Source: Halobacterium sp. DL1 (GTDB lineage: Archaea > Halobacteriota > Halobacteria > Halobacteriales > Halobacteriaceae). Taken from it: a stretch of 64,000 nt of DNA. How positions within the stretch are numbered: the stretch's first letter is position 1; each line of letters starts with the position of its first letter. The stretch is from assembly GCA_000230955.3 (NCBI GenBank), contig CP007060.1, positions 992,001 through 1,056,000 of the forward strand, read 5' to 3'. Position numbers and translations under genes: made by a program. The notes under the pieces are model-generated. The model ran no database searches. It was not told the DNA's origin and saw only the letters and a list, made by a program, of their open reading frames with translations. Shown one piece after another: positions 59,682 to 63,137 of the stretch.

Positions 59682-62074
59682 TTCTGCGTCTCGACGAGTT
59701 CCGTCCGGTTCACCGCGTAGACGGTGACTGTCGTCGTCACGGTCGCCACCGAGATGCCGGGTTCGTCGACCATGTTCGCGACCTCGTAGCGCTCCTGCTC
59801 GACGGGTCCGACCCAGATGTAGTCGACCTCGTGTTTCCGGAGGAGCACCGCCCGCGAGACGGGGTCCTCCGTCTCGAACAGGATGTCCACGTCGCTGACT
59901 CGCGTGTAGTAGGCCTCGTCGCCCCGGTATATCGTCTCCTGAATCCACCCCGCGACGGTCGGTATCCCCGTCAGGCTGGCCTCCGGGTTCTGCCAGGAGT
60001 ACGGCGTCAGACCGGGCGCGGAGACGAGGTGTGGCTGGCCGGGTCTGTCGAGCAGCCACTCGATTGCCGCCGCCTCACCGGGCCGCTCGTCGTGGACGTA
60101 CTCCATCGCGTCGAGGGTCGGGTCGTCTATCTGTCCGAAGTGATTCGTCAGCGCCAGGCCGCCGTAAACCGACGCCGAGACCAGCAGGACGGCGACGAGT
60201 GCCGTCCCCGCGGCCGACCGCAGTCGAGCGTTCGAACCCACTCCTCGGCGGGCGAGCGAGGCGAGCGCCACGCCGGCCGCGACCGACCAGAGCGCCCACG
60301 CCTGCGCGTACACCTTGAACACCGTGTTGAACCGCTCCGGCGAGGCGTTGTCCGCGAGGTAGACGTACTCTACGAGCACCACGAGGCCAGCGCCCGCGAC
60401 GACCAGCACGCCCTCGAAACCGACCCGCGACCGGCGGCGCAGCAGCCACGCGCCGGCCACCAGCGGTCCGCCCAGCGCCACGCCGACGAAGTCCAGGGAG
60501 ACGCCAGCCACGACGAGGTCGAACGTCGCGGCCAGCGTGACGAGGAACACCGCGGCGACCCCTGCGAGCGCCCAGTCCCATCGGTCCCGGGAGCCGCGAG
60601 CGACGAGGTACGCGCCCAGCGAGACGAGGAACAGACCGTGGACGATGAGGAACGAGCCGAGCTGACTCGGCTCCGGGAGGAACGCCGGATTACGTTCGGC
60701 CGCGCCGAGCAGGAGGACGTTCCAGACGAACGGCCACACCACGGCTAGCGATAGCACAGCGACGACGACCGCCGCGCCCACGCCGAACGCGACGCGCTGG
60801 AGTACCGTCCCGACGCGTCCCCCTCGCTCGAACGGCCCGCGGAACCGCGCGGGGACGAGCGTGTGCGGCGACGGGTCGGCGAGGGCGACGGACAGCGCCG
60901 TCACGCCGAGCACCGTCGGGAAACTCCACGTGTTCACGGCCAGTATCGTCGCCGCCAGCAGCGGCATCGCGCCGAACAGGAGGCCGATCCGCCGCCGAGT
61001 GCGCTGGGCCGGGGTCCGGTAGTAGGCCAGGGCCACGCCAGCGACGAGGAACAGCACCGCGACGTCCATCATGTGGCCGTGCAGGTCGCCGTTCAGGTAC
61101 GCGAACAGCGGGAACTCGTTGATGCCCGTCTCCACGATGCGGCTCGCGTGCCAGCTGTCGAACGTGCCGGGCGTGATGGTCGGCGCGCGGCCCTCCCGTA
61201 TCCCTGCCGCCGCCACCAGATCCTCGACGAAACCGACCTTCGACGCCAGCAGGCGCACCGGGGTCAGGAGGTTGCTGGCGAAGCCGAAGACGAACGCGGC
61301 GAGCACGCCGGCACGGACCCGCCGCGAGCGCGTGACCGCGGCCGCCGCGAGCGCCACTGGGAACACTACCAGGTACCACGACACGCCGAACGCGACCAGC
61401 GCGAGCGCGAACACGACGCCCGCCACGGCGAGCGCCGTCGAACCGCGAACAGGCTCCGTCTCGTTTCCGTCGCTCGTGCTGGCCGCTATCGTGCTCGCGA
61501 GTCCGTACGCGCCGGTGACCGCCATCGCGTAGAACCCCGCGAGCGCGGGACTGTACGCGAACCGTCCCTCCGTCCCCGTCAGCAGCGACAGCGTCGCGGC
61601 CATCAGGTGGCCGCCGTAGTAGTAGATGACGCGTTCGCCCGCGAACCACATGTCCTGTGGCGGGAGCCGGTCCGCCCGCAGCAGGCTCTGCAGGATGCCG
61701 AAGTCGAGGAACTTCTCGCCCGCGAACGGGTGGACGCCGTCCGCCGCCGCGCGAATCGCTATCAGGAACAGGAACGCCACCGTGAACACCGCGACCACCT
61801 CCGCGTACGCACGGGCGTCGACCTCGATGCCGCCGCGAGCCAGCCACGCCGACGCCGCGAGCAGCAGTACCGCGACGCCAACCACGACCCACAGTCCGAA
61901 CGCGAGTTGCCCGACCCACAGCAGCGGCAGCGTCAGCAACACGAGGGCCGTCGGCATCGCCAGCGACGCCCCGCGGTCGGGCGCGTCCGGCAACACGCGC
62001 GCCGCGAACGGGAGACCCACGACCAGCAACACCTGGTAGAGGAGCCACCAGCGGACGACCACACCGTACTCCAT
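59678..62074 (-). CDS. DUF2298 multi-helix membrane protein
   Basis: A 798-residue membrane protein with about 12-14 helices, starting at ATG 62074. Signatures include AEVVAVFTVAFLFLIAIRAA, FLDFGILQSLLRADRLPPQD, MWFAGERVIYYYGGHLMAAT and HASRIVETGINEFPLFAYLN. The YYYGG/GHLM stretch marks the DUF2298 (YYY) family. The C-terminal 150 residues form an outside domain with GEAAAIEWLLDRPGQPHLVS. The family looks like glycosyltransferase GT-C membrane enzymes, so a role in surface glycan or lipid transfer is a reasonable guess; not proven. It converges with HAH_0734. Confidence 0.85.
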   Translation of the reverse strand: MEYGVVVRWWLLYQVLLVVGLPFAARVLPDAPDRGASLAMPTALVLLTLPLLWVGQLAFGLWVVVGVAVLLLAASAWLARGGIEVDARAYAEVVAVFTVAFLFLIAIRAAADGVHPFAGEKFLDFGILQSLLRADRLPPQDMWFAGERVIYYYGGHLMAATLSLLTGTEGRFAYSPALAGFYAMAVTGAYGLASTIAASTSDGNETEPVRGSTALAVAGVVFALALVAFGVSWYLVVFPVALAAAAVTRSRRVRAGVLAAFVFGFASNLLTPVRLLASKVGFVEDLVAAAGIREGRAPTITPGTFDSWHASRIVETGINEFPLFAYLNGDLHGHMMDVAVLFLVAGVALAYYRTPAQRTRRRIGLLFGAMPLLAATILAVNTWSFPTVLGVTALSVALADPSPHTLVPARFRGPFERGGRVGTVLQRVAFGVGAAVVVAVLSLAVVWPFVWNVLLLGAAERNPAFLPEPSQLGSFLIVHGLFLVSLGAYLVARGSRDRWDWALAGVAAVFLVTLAATFDLVVAGVSLDFVGVALGGPLVAGAWLLRRRSRVGFEGVLVVAGAGLVVLVEYVYLADNASPERFNTVFKVYAQAWALWSVAAGVALASLARRGVGSNARLRSAAGTALVAVLLVSASVYGGLALTNHFGQIDDPTLDAMEYVHDERPGEAAAIEWLLDRPGQPHLVSAPGLTPYSWQNPEASLTGIPTVAGWIQETIYRGDEAYYTRVSDVDILFETEDPVSRAVLLRKHEVDYIWVGPVEQERYEVANMVDEPGISVATVTTTVTVYAVNRTELVETQN

Positions 62075-62148
62075 TGACCGGACGAAGTCGACGCTTCGGC
62101 AAACGCTTTCGGGTTCGCGGCCGCAGTGGCCCGGACAACGCCGTTGTC

Positions 62149-62179
62149 GCAGGAGAGTAGTGGTAGGTGGATTTGAACA
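62149..62179 (-). repeat. Partial copy of the tRNA-Met 3' end (attachment-site-like)
   Basis: GCAGGAGAGTAGTGGTAGGT and the following GGATTTGAAC (62149-62178) match the region 62289-62319, which covers the 3' flank, acceptor arm and T arm of tRNA-Met, with about four differences and one gap. The copy has no other tRNA parts. On the plus strand at 62221-62244 there is also an inverted partial copy (ATTCAAATCTACGCCCGCAC). Such 3'-end duplicates are typical att scars of elements that integrate into tRNA genes. Confidence 0.5.
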
Positions 62180-62298
62180 GGTGAATAACGGTCCTCGCTC
62201 CGCTCGGCTGCGTCACTCAGGATTCAAATCTACGCCCGCACTACGTGGATGGAAACAACTGCGCAGACGAGACTGCGCAGTCGGTTTTGCAGGAGAAG

Positions 62299-62373
62299 TA
62301 GCGGGAGGTAGATTTGAACTACCGATCTCCGGGTTATGAGCCCGGCGGAATCTCCTGGCTATCCCATCCCGCT
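62299..62373 (-). tRNA. Initiator tRNA-Met(CAT)
   Basis: On the reverse strand: acceptor AGCGGGA with TCCCGCT, discriminator A, D arm GGATAGCC-like, anticodon arm CCGGG-CTCATAA-CCCGG with anticodon CAT, and T arm GTAGTTCAAATCTAC. The A1-U72 pair at the acceptor end and three G-C pairs next to the anticodon loop (GGG/CCC) are the marks of an archaeal initiator, not the elongator or Ile2 form. No intron. aIF2 alpha, which delivers this tRNA, is encoded about 5 kb away. Confidence 0.93.
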
Positions 62374-62441
62374 ACCTCTCCGTAACCCGGTCTTTCAGTT
62401 AAGGGTTCTGTTTCGGACGCCGTGTGGGGATTCTCCGCCCG

Positions 62442-63137
62442 CTACGCGGCGAGTTCGTCGAGGAGGGTCTGGGCCGCCGCTGCCGACGATTCGGGCCCGC
62501 GAGCCGTCACGAGGTCGCCGTCGACGGTGACACTCGTATCGCTGTCGAGTTCGGCGTCCCAGTCGCCGCCGGCAGCGACCACCTCCTCCTCGACCCAGTA
62601 GGGGAGCTTCCGGCCGTCCGGCATCCGGCCGTCGTCGTCGACGATGTCGGCCTCCCAGGCGTTCGGGAAGCCAGTCACTTCCCGCCCGTCGACGACGAAA
62701 CCGGCGTCCTCGTCGTGGGCTCTCGCCTCGCGGACCCACGCGAGGATGCCCACCGCGTGACAGACGACGAGGGCCTTCTCGCTGTCGCCACTGAGCGCGT
62801 TTCGCAGGACGCGTCGCGCGTCGCGGTCCTGGTTCACGTCCCACACGGTTCCGTGGCCGCCGGGGAACACGACCGCGTCGTAGTCCACGGCTTCGACGCG
62901 GGACGTCGGCCGCGGGGCGTTCAGTCGGTCGTCGGTCTCGTGGATTTCGCGCACGCGCTCGGCTGTCTCCTCGCCGACCTCCTCGGGGTCGACCGAGCGC
63001 TCGTCGAGGACCGGCGGGTCGCCGCTCGGCGTCGCGACGGTGATGTCGAAGCCCTCGCTGTCGAGGGTCGTCAGCGGCTCGATACACTCCTCGCCCCAGT
63101 AGCCGTGCTCGCTCACGACGAACAGTGCAGATGGCAT
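62442..63137 (-). CDS. DJ-1/PfpI-family protein (type 1 glutamine amidotransferase-like)
   Basis: A 231-residue protein of the Hsp31/DJ-1 class. The nucleophile elbow is ALVVCHAVGILAWVREA (Cys-His, about 125), with Glu in HGYWGEECIEPLTTLDSEGF (about 17) and the FPGGHGTVWDVNQDRDARRV loop. Hsp31-type members act as glyoxalase III/deglycases or chaperones. Without a clear third residue, the catalytic type cannot be set. Start ATG 63137. It stands between tRNA-Met and the purine phosphoribosyltransferase on the same strand. Confidence 0.87.
   Translation of the reverse strand: MPSALFVVSEHGYWGEECIEPLTTLDSEGFDITVATPSGDPPVLDERSVDPEEVGEETAERVREIHETDDRLNAPRPTSRVEAVDYDAVVFPGGHGTVWDVNQDRDARRVLRNALSGDSEKALVVCHAVGILAWVREARAHDEDAGFVVDGREVTGFPNAWEADIVDDDGRMPDGRKLPYWVEEEVVAAGGDWDAELDSDTSVTVDGDLVTARGPESSAAAAQTLLDELAA

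Follow-up and report, generated by a model that had tools for sequence, protein, structure and literature searches.

The window analyzed here is a stretch of 64,000 nucleotides from Halobacterium sp. DL1 (genome G000 below) in which ARAGORN detected a single tRNA gene, a tRNA-Met(CAT) that we read as the initiator on the basis of its A1-U72 start and the three G-C pairs of its anticodon stem. The gene and the array behind its 3′ end comprise the following features:

62298..62373, minus strand: initiator tRNA-Met(CAT), the anchor of the array (ARAGORN; Rfam RF00005, 60.5 bits at 62299-62373)
62179..62319, minus strand: complete cassette D1-A-I-B, 141 bp (fold; covariance model R1)
62299..62319, minus strand: D1, first direct core, tRNA nucleotides 53-73 from GTTC to the discriminator
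62234..62296, minus strand: hairpin A, containing both CTGCGCAG arms (unit fold)
62222..62233, minus strand: I, inverted core, reverse complement of the T-loop part of D (fold; D-I pairing counted)
62179..62221, minus strand: hairpin B, related across cassettes of different tRNAs (R2 match; covariation)
62156..62178, minus strand: D2, displaced older copy of the tRNA 3′ end, 20/23 identical
62130..62155, minus strand: probable start of a decayed second cassette, where CTCTCCTGCGACAACGG resembles the start of hairpin A (sequence)

A direct repeat at the tRNA 3′ end had been proposed in a sequence-only reading of this DNA and is real: positions 62156-62178 and 62297-62319 agree at 20 of 23 positions at a spacing of 141, and the similarity spans the region from the GTTC of the T-loop to the discriminator base plus two bases. 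The inverted partial copy reported with it is likewise genuine and integral to the unit, a 12-nt core at 62222-62233 that agrees at 11 of 12 positions with the reverse complement of the T-loop part of D and whose pairing with D reaches the acceptor part in the folded unit. In the sense of the tRNA, the order of the unit is D (GTTCAAATCTACCTCCCGCTA), hairpin A, I (GTAGATTTGAAT), hairpin B, and the next D. In the fold of the window unit, hairpin A is enclosed by pairing between D and I, the alternative being that I pairs with the next D around hairpin B. The ACTGCGCAG repeats form, within hairpin A, both arms of a hairpin whose 9-bp stem is perfect. Compared with shuffles, the fold has a z of -5.9 as RNA and -4.5 as DNA, with 0/200 shuffles as good in the latter case. 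R1, a covariance model from 24 units, scores the window cassette at 95.2 bits, the best match of the genome, and R2, a second covariance model of the segment I-B-D2, matches 62167-62233 over hairpin B at 64.1 bits (E 3e-14), the unit itself being part of both alignments. With Rfam on 61900-62600, the gathering score was reached by the tRNA alone and two sub-threshold matches were judged spurious. A sub-threshold match to Plastid-ycf2 on the antisense of the tRNA (62298-62373, plus strand) had 24.8 bits as compared with a gathering score of 65.7, and was judged spurious as well. Three ORFs were seen beside the array, which we take to be DUF2298-like, DJ-1/PfpI-like, and PRTase-like.

Within G000, the 3′ end of 17 of the 44 tRNA genes recurs (at least 18/21 nt) no more than 600 nt further downstream, the recurrence at Gly-CCC being doubtful, as compared with a chance control upstream of the 44 genes in which the best match was 15/21 to D and 16/21 to its reverse complement; by a second count, a unit follows 18/44 tRNA genes in G000 and 13/43 in a close relative. 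R1 gives 17 matches in this genome (E up to 1), 12 of which begin inside the 3′ end of other tRNA genes, and a shared unit plan is found behind Arg, Asn, Ala, Lys, Gly, Val, Met, Leu, Glu, Ser, and His tRNAs (11 isotypes in G000, the doubtful Gly-CCC and Pro-GGG repeats being excluded from the unit set). Units are 89-186 nt long with a median of 130 (124 of 146 units; extraction allowed 55-215 nt) and have the core GGTTCRAA, and most share the hairpin motifs CCCTGnnAGTCGCAGC ... GAGCGNAGCGAG ... GACCGTCTnnCTCCG ahead of the next GGTTC, with GCGNAGC-type mini-hairpins frequent within hairpin B; Lys and Gly-GCC units have a different type of hairpin B. In nine genomes of the genus, R2 (E up to 0.01) gives 11-34 matches per genome and 183 in total. 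About half of these, the best ones included, were inspected in 70 loci, and 80 of 85 matches lie behind a tRNA on the same strand in arrays of up to four units; 19 of 104 matches were left out before this count, 17 as opposite-strand shadows of listed hairpins and 2 as weak extras (L214 545-603 and L179 1072-1143). The other five comprise two in one tRNA-Val-like region (G010), one near a tRNA-Val acceptor fragment (G012), one in G000, and one in G001. At L190 753-823 (G000:C1:381552) an R2 match has no tRNA found nearby, and at L204 720-776 (G001) a hairpin-B-like match with core GTTCGAC / GTCGAGC follows a protein gene, with no tRNA, perhaps as a branch of cassettes with another core.

Copies in relatives with no larger element, which the sequence-only reading named as its own refutation, are largely what the tRNA-Met loci examined show: in a search of 59 genomes of the same order, 19 of 30 such loci, the window's own included, carry at least one unit, and a TnpB gene lies at two others of the 30, with boundaries that differ from those of the units. 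As many as four D follow one another at tRNA-Met, the spacing is 126-153 bp in 24 of 26 cases, and D variants tend, by eye, to follow each genome's own tRNA. The proposal that the copy arose through DNA inserting into the tRNA 3′ end is upheld, but not that an element was almost fully deleted, since the 141 bp are a complete structured unit; nor is the short DNA between the copies a deletion remnant, as the same kind of unit occurs one to four times in tandem behind many haloarchaeal tRNA genes.

Pairing was counted in A3, an alignment of 28 I-B-D2 segments of which 14 are from G000 (eight tRNA isotypes plus a non-tRNA unit described below) and 14 from tRNA-Met units of relatives; 6 of 34 segments were dropped (Asn, two Lys, Gly-GCC, His, and L004) and one was trimmed. 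Over 20 pairs, drawn like all those counted here from folds of the same sequences, 90.1% of 547 cells were standard-paired as compared with 76.5% after shuffling and at most 44.6% after sliding, and the covariation score was 0.381 as compared with 0.159 shuffled and at most 0.094 slid; two of five covariation measures were weaker, namely 11 both-side pairs (15/500 shuffles as high) and 32 further pair types (8/500). For the D-I and hairpin A pairs of 24 tRNA-Met units, the corresponding values were 90.3% as compared with 86.3% shuffled and at most 47.2% slid, with a covariation score of 0.154 versus 0.090 shuffled, and hairpin A pairs alone were formed in 76.6%; alignment A2 had 2 of 26 units dropped (L008_u1 for a long insert and L025_u2 as truncated). 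The structures were set by hand from single folds and then counted because RNAalifold found the I-D2 stem and part of B only, its use on the first alignment being limited because hairpin A aligns poorly. Base 57 of D and its partner in the unit's own I were A/T 75 times, G/C 32, A/C 12, G/T 2, C/T 2, and A/G once in 124 of 146 units, the 22 others being excluded for a weak I core or N. In the tRNA-specific part, complementarity was modestly higher to the unit's own tRNA (mean 4.90) than to others (4.21, sd of control means 0.09). This match of I to its tRNA could reflect selection for pairing or template-switch correction of quasi-palindromes.

One unit in G000 occupies a non-tRNA site, upstream of a gene that we read as biotin-carboxylase-like, where G005 has the exact uninterrupted site (...ACTGTCGGTTCGGAATCGTCCACG) and G000 reads ...ACTGTCGGTTCGAATCC...unit...CTCCGGTTCGGAATCGTCCACG. 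GGTTC is common to both junctions, and since this is the one non-tRNA site with a documented empty state, a 5-bp target duplication and a shared recombination core are indistinguishable here. At the same site G010 keeps only the first part of the G000 insertion, an internally deleted copy, and G011 has a different unit. The G000 unit resembles tRNA-Val-CAC cassettes over its full length, D included (72% over 149 nt, E 3e-17 in the set of 146 units), with all four best hits being Val-CAC, so D belongs to the cassette and travels with it. In G012, the non-tRNA site by the carboxylase-like gene (L141) has a long inverted repeat, GTTCGAACCCGCTCGTT...AACGAGCGGGTTCGAA, possibly a remnant composed of D and I.

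Eleven tRNAs carry a unit in just one of the two genomes G000 and G010, its close relative. Precise insertion fits six of these pairs (Asn, His, Arg-GCG, Arg-TCT, Gln-CTG, and Pro), in which, by anchored alignment (free-end alignment was judged unfair), the match of the empty flank to the sequence past the displaced D exceeds that of each of 300 shuffles as well as the match to the sequence past the filled tRNA; the Pro pair (Pro-GGG) is doubtful because G000 has a partial copy 31 nt on, and in the Asn pair the wrong junction was also above its shuffles (3 versus a maximum of 0), as compared with 31 for the right junction. The other five fit neither and are uninformative, with the wrong junction slightly higher in three of them, below the shuffled maximum, and they include the probable mispairings Ala-CGC, Gly-CCC, and Gly-TCC, where upstream identity is low. 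At Ser-CGA the sole unit of G010 has its homologue in the second of the G000 units, so the newer unit entered adjoining the tRNA; a new tRNA-proximal unit is seen by eye at Glu-TTC too, and polarity rests on these two cases. At Arg-CCT the unit has been exchanged for another. Nearest neighbors among the 146 units had the same anticodon in 60 cases (6.8 expected, maximum 16 in 1000 draws) and the same genome in 15 (9.5 expected, maximum 19). The anticodon clustering is in keeping with a cassette persisting only at tRNAs that its D restores, with vertical descent at the same tRNA contributing. As a weak hint, D differs at 4/231 positions and the rest of the tRNA at 3/570 in one-filled pairs; in no-unit pairs the counts are 3/420 and 23/1159, 15 of the 23 being in one intron-containing tRNA. 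In these comparisons of genomes, units are there or missing as entire blocks, the former 3′ end of the tRNA sits displaced downstream, and newer units adjoin the tRNA. At this level we consider it shown that a structured element bearing a tRNA 3′ end has inserted as a whole unit, anchored at tRNA genes.

R2 (E up to 1e-4) matched 51 of 294 genomes of the phylum, all from the window's order and representing 51 of the 53 order genomes listed, and 0 of the 241 other genomes of the phylum, 223 of which are not itemised and are taken as outside the order because the output lists genomes by kinship. The exact consensus pattern was found in 42 stretches of a named genome collection, with haloarchaeal titles save for ‘uncultured archaeon A07HB70’ and a ‘Euryarchaeota archaeon’ MAG; in 37 the pattern follows an annotated tRNA of the same orientation, and by eye the remaining five are four with a tRNA cut by the locus end or masked as N and one with a tRNA-Gly-like fragment. 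An R2 match was absent in five (G035, G061, G296, G332, and G335) of 12 haloarchaeal genomes picked for weak R1, one strict pattern had no match in viral contigs, and one unit as blastn query had none in plasmids and phages. The R1 search of the class gave 382 of 391 genomes, a figure not counted as proof because scoring was limited to 8 candidates per genome and tRNA-Met sequence is part of R1.

In integrons, the short cassettes end in an imperfect palindrome with an inverse core and a core, they stand in tandem arrays, insertion is polar at a fixed anchor, a short core suffices at secondary sites, and the core site of attC is GTTRRRY. The units are similar in having inverse core, imperfect palindrome, and core in that order, with structure kept over sequence (the 20 pairs of A3, 90.1% paired), and in forming tandem arrays with anchor-proximal entry of new cassettes (Ser-CGA, and by eye Glu-TTC). 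They differ in their GGTTC(R)A core, in being gene-less, in being anchored at a tRNA gene rather than attI, and in that the cassette bears a tRNA 3′ end. Integrons have an IntI-type integrase gene next to the attachment site; beside the unit arrays no integrase was seen. We consider it likely, with a probability of about 0.72, that the units are non-autonomous, integron-cassette-like mobile elements with the universal T-loop GGTTC as core, which a putative recombinase moves in trans and whose D re-ends the tRNA. The cassette would move as a circle or an equivalent intermediate by site-specific recombination at GGTTC, its D would become the new tRNA 3′ end, and the I-B-D segment, when folded, would serve as a recombination site in the manner of attC. 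A cassette would survive in a tRNA gene only if its D gave back a working tRNA, so that tRNA-specific cassette lineages would result. The enzyme would most likely be a tyrosine recombinase, as in the larger elements at the same tRNA sites. A bolder claim, that this is a new class of recombination system with a structure-recognised cassette pool, a GGTTC core, any tRNA gene as platform, and a tRNA 3′ end as cargo, is tentative and in our judgment somewhat short of an even chance.

Insertion of the units resembles that of tRNA-integrated elements in rebuilding the tRNA 3′ end and leaving a partial copy downstream (the six fitting pairs, one of them doubtful), and the tRNA-Val end of G010 is used by both; those elements, unlike the units, are kilobases long with an integrase, whereas the units are ~140 bp, non-coding, without a recombinase, and found at many isotypes. 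The SNJ2 integrase is reportedly the subject of a paper by Wang from 2018. Tyrosine-integrase integrative elements at archaeal tRNA genes include the SNJ2 and HSTV2 families (PMC8371274). At tRNA-Val-CAC of G010 (L273, G010:C1:523600-526700) there is a ~2 kb element with a 28-bp att and a tyrosine recombinase at 878-1912, which matches Phage_int_SAM_5 at the cut-off and by eye has the R..HxLR..Y residues, and an older cassette lies beyond the distal D of this element. Relatives of the L273 integrase were found by tblastn in 4 loci of the collected set, 3 of them being one G010 element, and in 178 of 194 genomes of a class sample (E up to 1e-15); the zero-unit genomes G035 and G061 have such relatives, and G069, with its 16 units, gave no match at E<=1e-15; this integrase was rejected as sole driver on those grounds. 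This imperfect tracking counts against the integron-like model, as do the 28-bp identity of att, longer than the cassette core, the single non-tRNA site with a documented empty state, the two weaker covariation measures, the finding of no recombinase gene linked to the cassettes, which carry no gene, the five uninformative pairs, and the 26 of 44 tRNA genes in G000 without a unit. An R2 match of at least 28 bits was present at 10 of the 30 best integrase loci, by eye just past the distal D of the element in six (L358, L359, L363, L365, L368, and L384); L367 has its own tRNA-Phe, and in L380 and L381 the match is on the other side of the integrase gene. The sites are thus common to elements and units. 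The element end by the start of the integrase in L358, and perhaps that in L387, is similar to hairpin B with its core (30.5 and 28.1 bits), weakly hinting at machinery common to both.

An alternative explanation could be single-stranded DNA transposition by a Y1/HUH enzyme of the IS200/IS605 type, with PATE-like units inserted 3′ of GGTTC and I as a guide pairing the cleavage sites beside hairpin B. The order guide, hairpin, cleavage site resembles that of the IS608 right end, and hairpin B often has the GCGNAGC-type mini-hairpins, but we know of no IS end that carries a tRNA 3′ end as the cassettes do. Y1_Tnp had no match (E<=0.001) in 4 of 9 genomes, including the unit-rich G002 (30 units) and G012 (21 units); its presence does not follow unit number, and a Y1 transposase was rejected as driver for this reason. 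TnpB-like genes at the tRNA-Met 3′ end in G007 (L274, 2293-3567) and G017 (L275) lend this explanation some support, the former having a Cas12f1-like TNB domain (E 1e-17) and the latter being judged by its sequence only. In both elements the left end restores the acceptor-stem CCTCCCGCTA and the right end is ...GTTCA/CCTCCCGCTA, as if they were specialised on tRNA-Met, but their boundary within the tRNA differs from that of the units, and they were rejected as autonomous partner. Small, transposase-free mobile repeats (MITEs, PATEs, and SMRs) are familiar from haloarchaea, and PATEs have near-end palindromes, some appearing to be derived from IS605 ends, yet the available part of PMC3119063, on which this rests, mentions no tie to tRNA, no tRNA 3′ end, and no gene-anchored tandem arrays. 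Hairpin B, directly before the right junction, is a near-terminal palindrome as in PATEs; in contrast to classical MITEs, the units have no terminal inverted repeats, with direct GGTTC cores at both ends and the inverted core internal. Overall we regard transposition of this type as unlikely.

The remaining alternatives are poorer still. A cis-acting structured RNA under selection, whether tRNA trailer, attenuator, or sponge, with tandem copies from unequal crossing-over, would account for the strong base-pair covariation, and I could sequester the T-arm, given that D pairs with I, and no T-arm forms, when tRNA and unit are folded together. DNA hairpins and template-switch correction of quasi-palindromes would be expected to yield covariation too, however, and the RNA explanation is made improbable by presence, number, and sequence that vary between close relatives at many tRNAs, by units at fewer than half of the G000 tRNA genes, and by the non-tRNA unit with a clean empty site in a relative. 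That the units are what remains of conventional tRNA-integrated elements or proviruses after loss of their core, as the sequence-only reading had it, is highly improbable: larger tyrosine-integrase elements do lie at the same tRNA ends with units beyond, and tRNA remnants as direct repeats of such elements are described in the part available of PMC7921747, but units behind tRNAs of 11 isotypes within one genome, like those of other genomes, have the same architecture, often stand in tandem, and have related hairpins that covary, several precise filled/empty pairs differ by exactly one unit, and the uniform unit and its insertion as a whole at the non-tRNA site already disfavor it. The slimmest chance goes to a process without any mobility, in which the repeats only duplicate locally in tandem or undergo recA-type recombination; it would explain near-identical neighbors such as two units in L029 and two at Glu-TTC of G009, but could not place the first unit behind a tRNA that had none, or a unit of Val type away from tRNA genes, and is contradicted already by the non-tRNA insertion.

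If the integron-like reading is true, a mobile gene-less cassette would follow the 3′ end of a large share of haloarchaeal tRNA genes and would probably have supplied that end, and Archaea would possess an integron-like device built on the most conserved piece of tRNA. It would become testable how mobile DNA spreads over many tRNA genes without killing them and which recombinase moves structured DNA. Were the new-class reading also true, tRNA genes throughout an archaeal class would be continually re-ended, possibly protecting them against larger elements that integrate at the same site. We did not recognise the units as described in the open full-text literature, including the available main-text parts of PMC3119063, PMC8371274, PMC7921747, and PMC3402447. 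In Haloferax gibbonsii, tRNA remnants are reported directly beside full copies, in the available part of the paper without explanation, unit, hairpins, or mobility (PMC7921747). These partial tRNAs are probably the same phenomenon, and the cassettes could explain the ‘partial tRNAs’ reported beside full haloarchaeal tRNA genes. As a minor observation, genome G198 has two initiator-type tRNA-Met loci (L125 and L126), each with its own cassette, in which by eye the arms of hairpin A differ while their pairing is kept.
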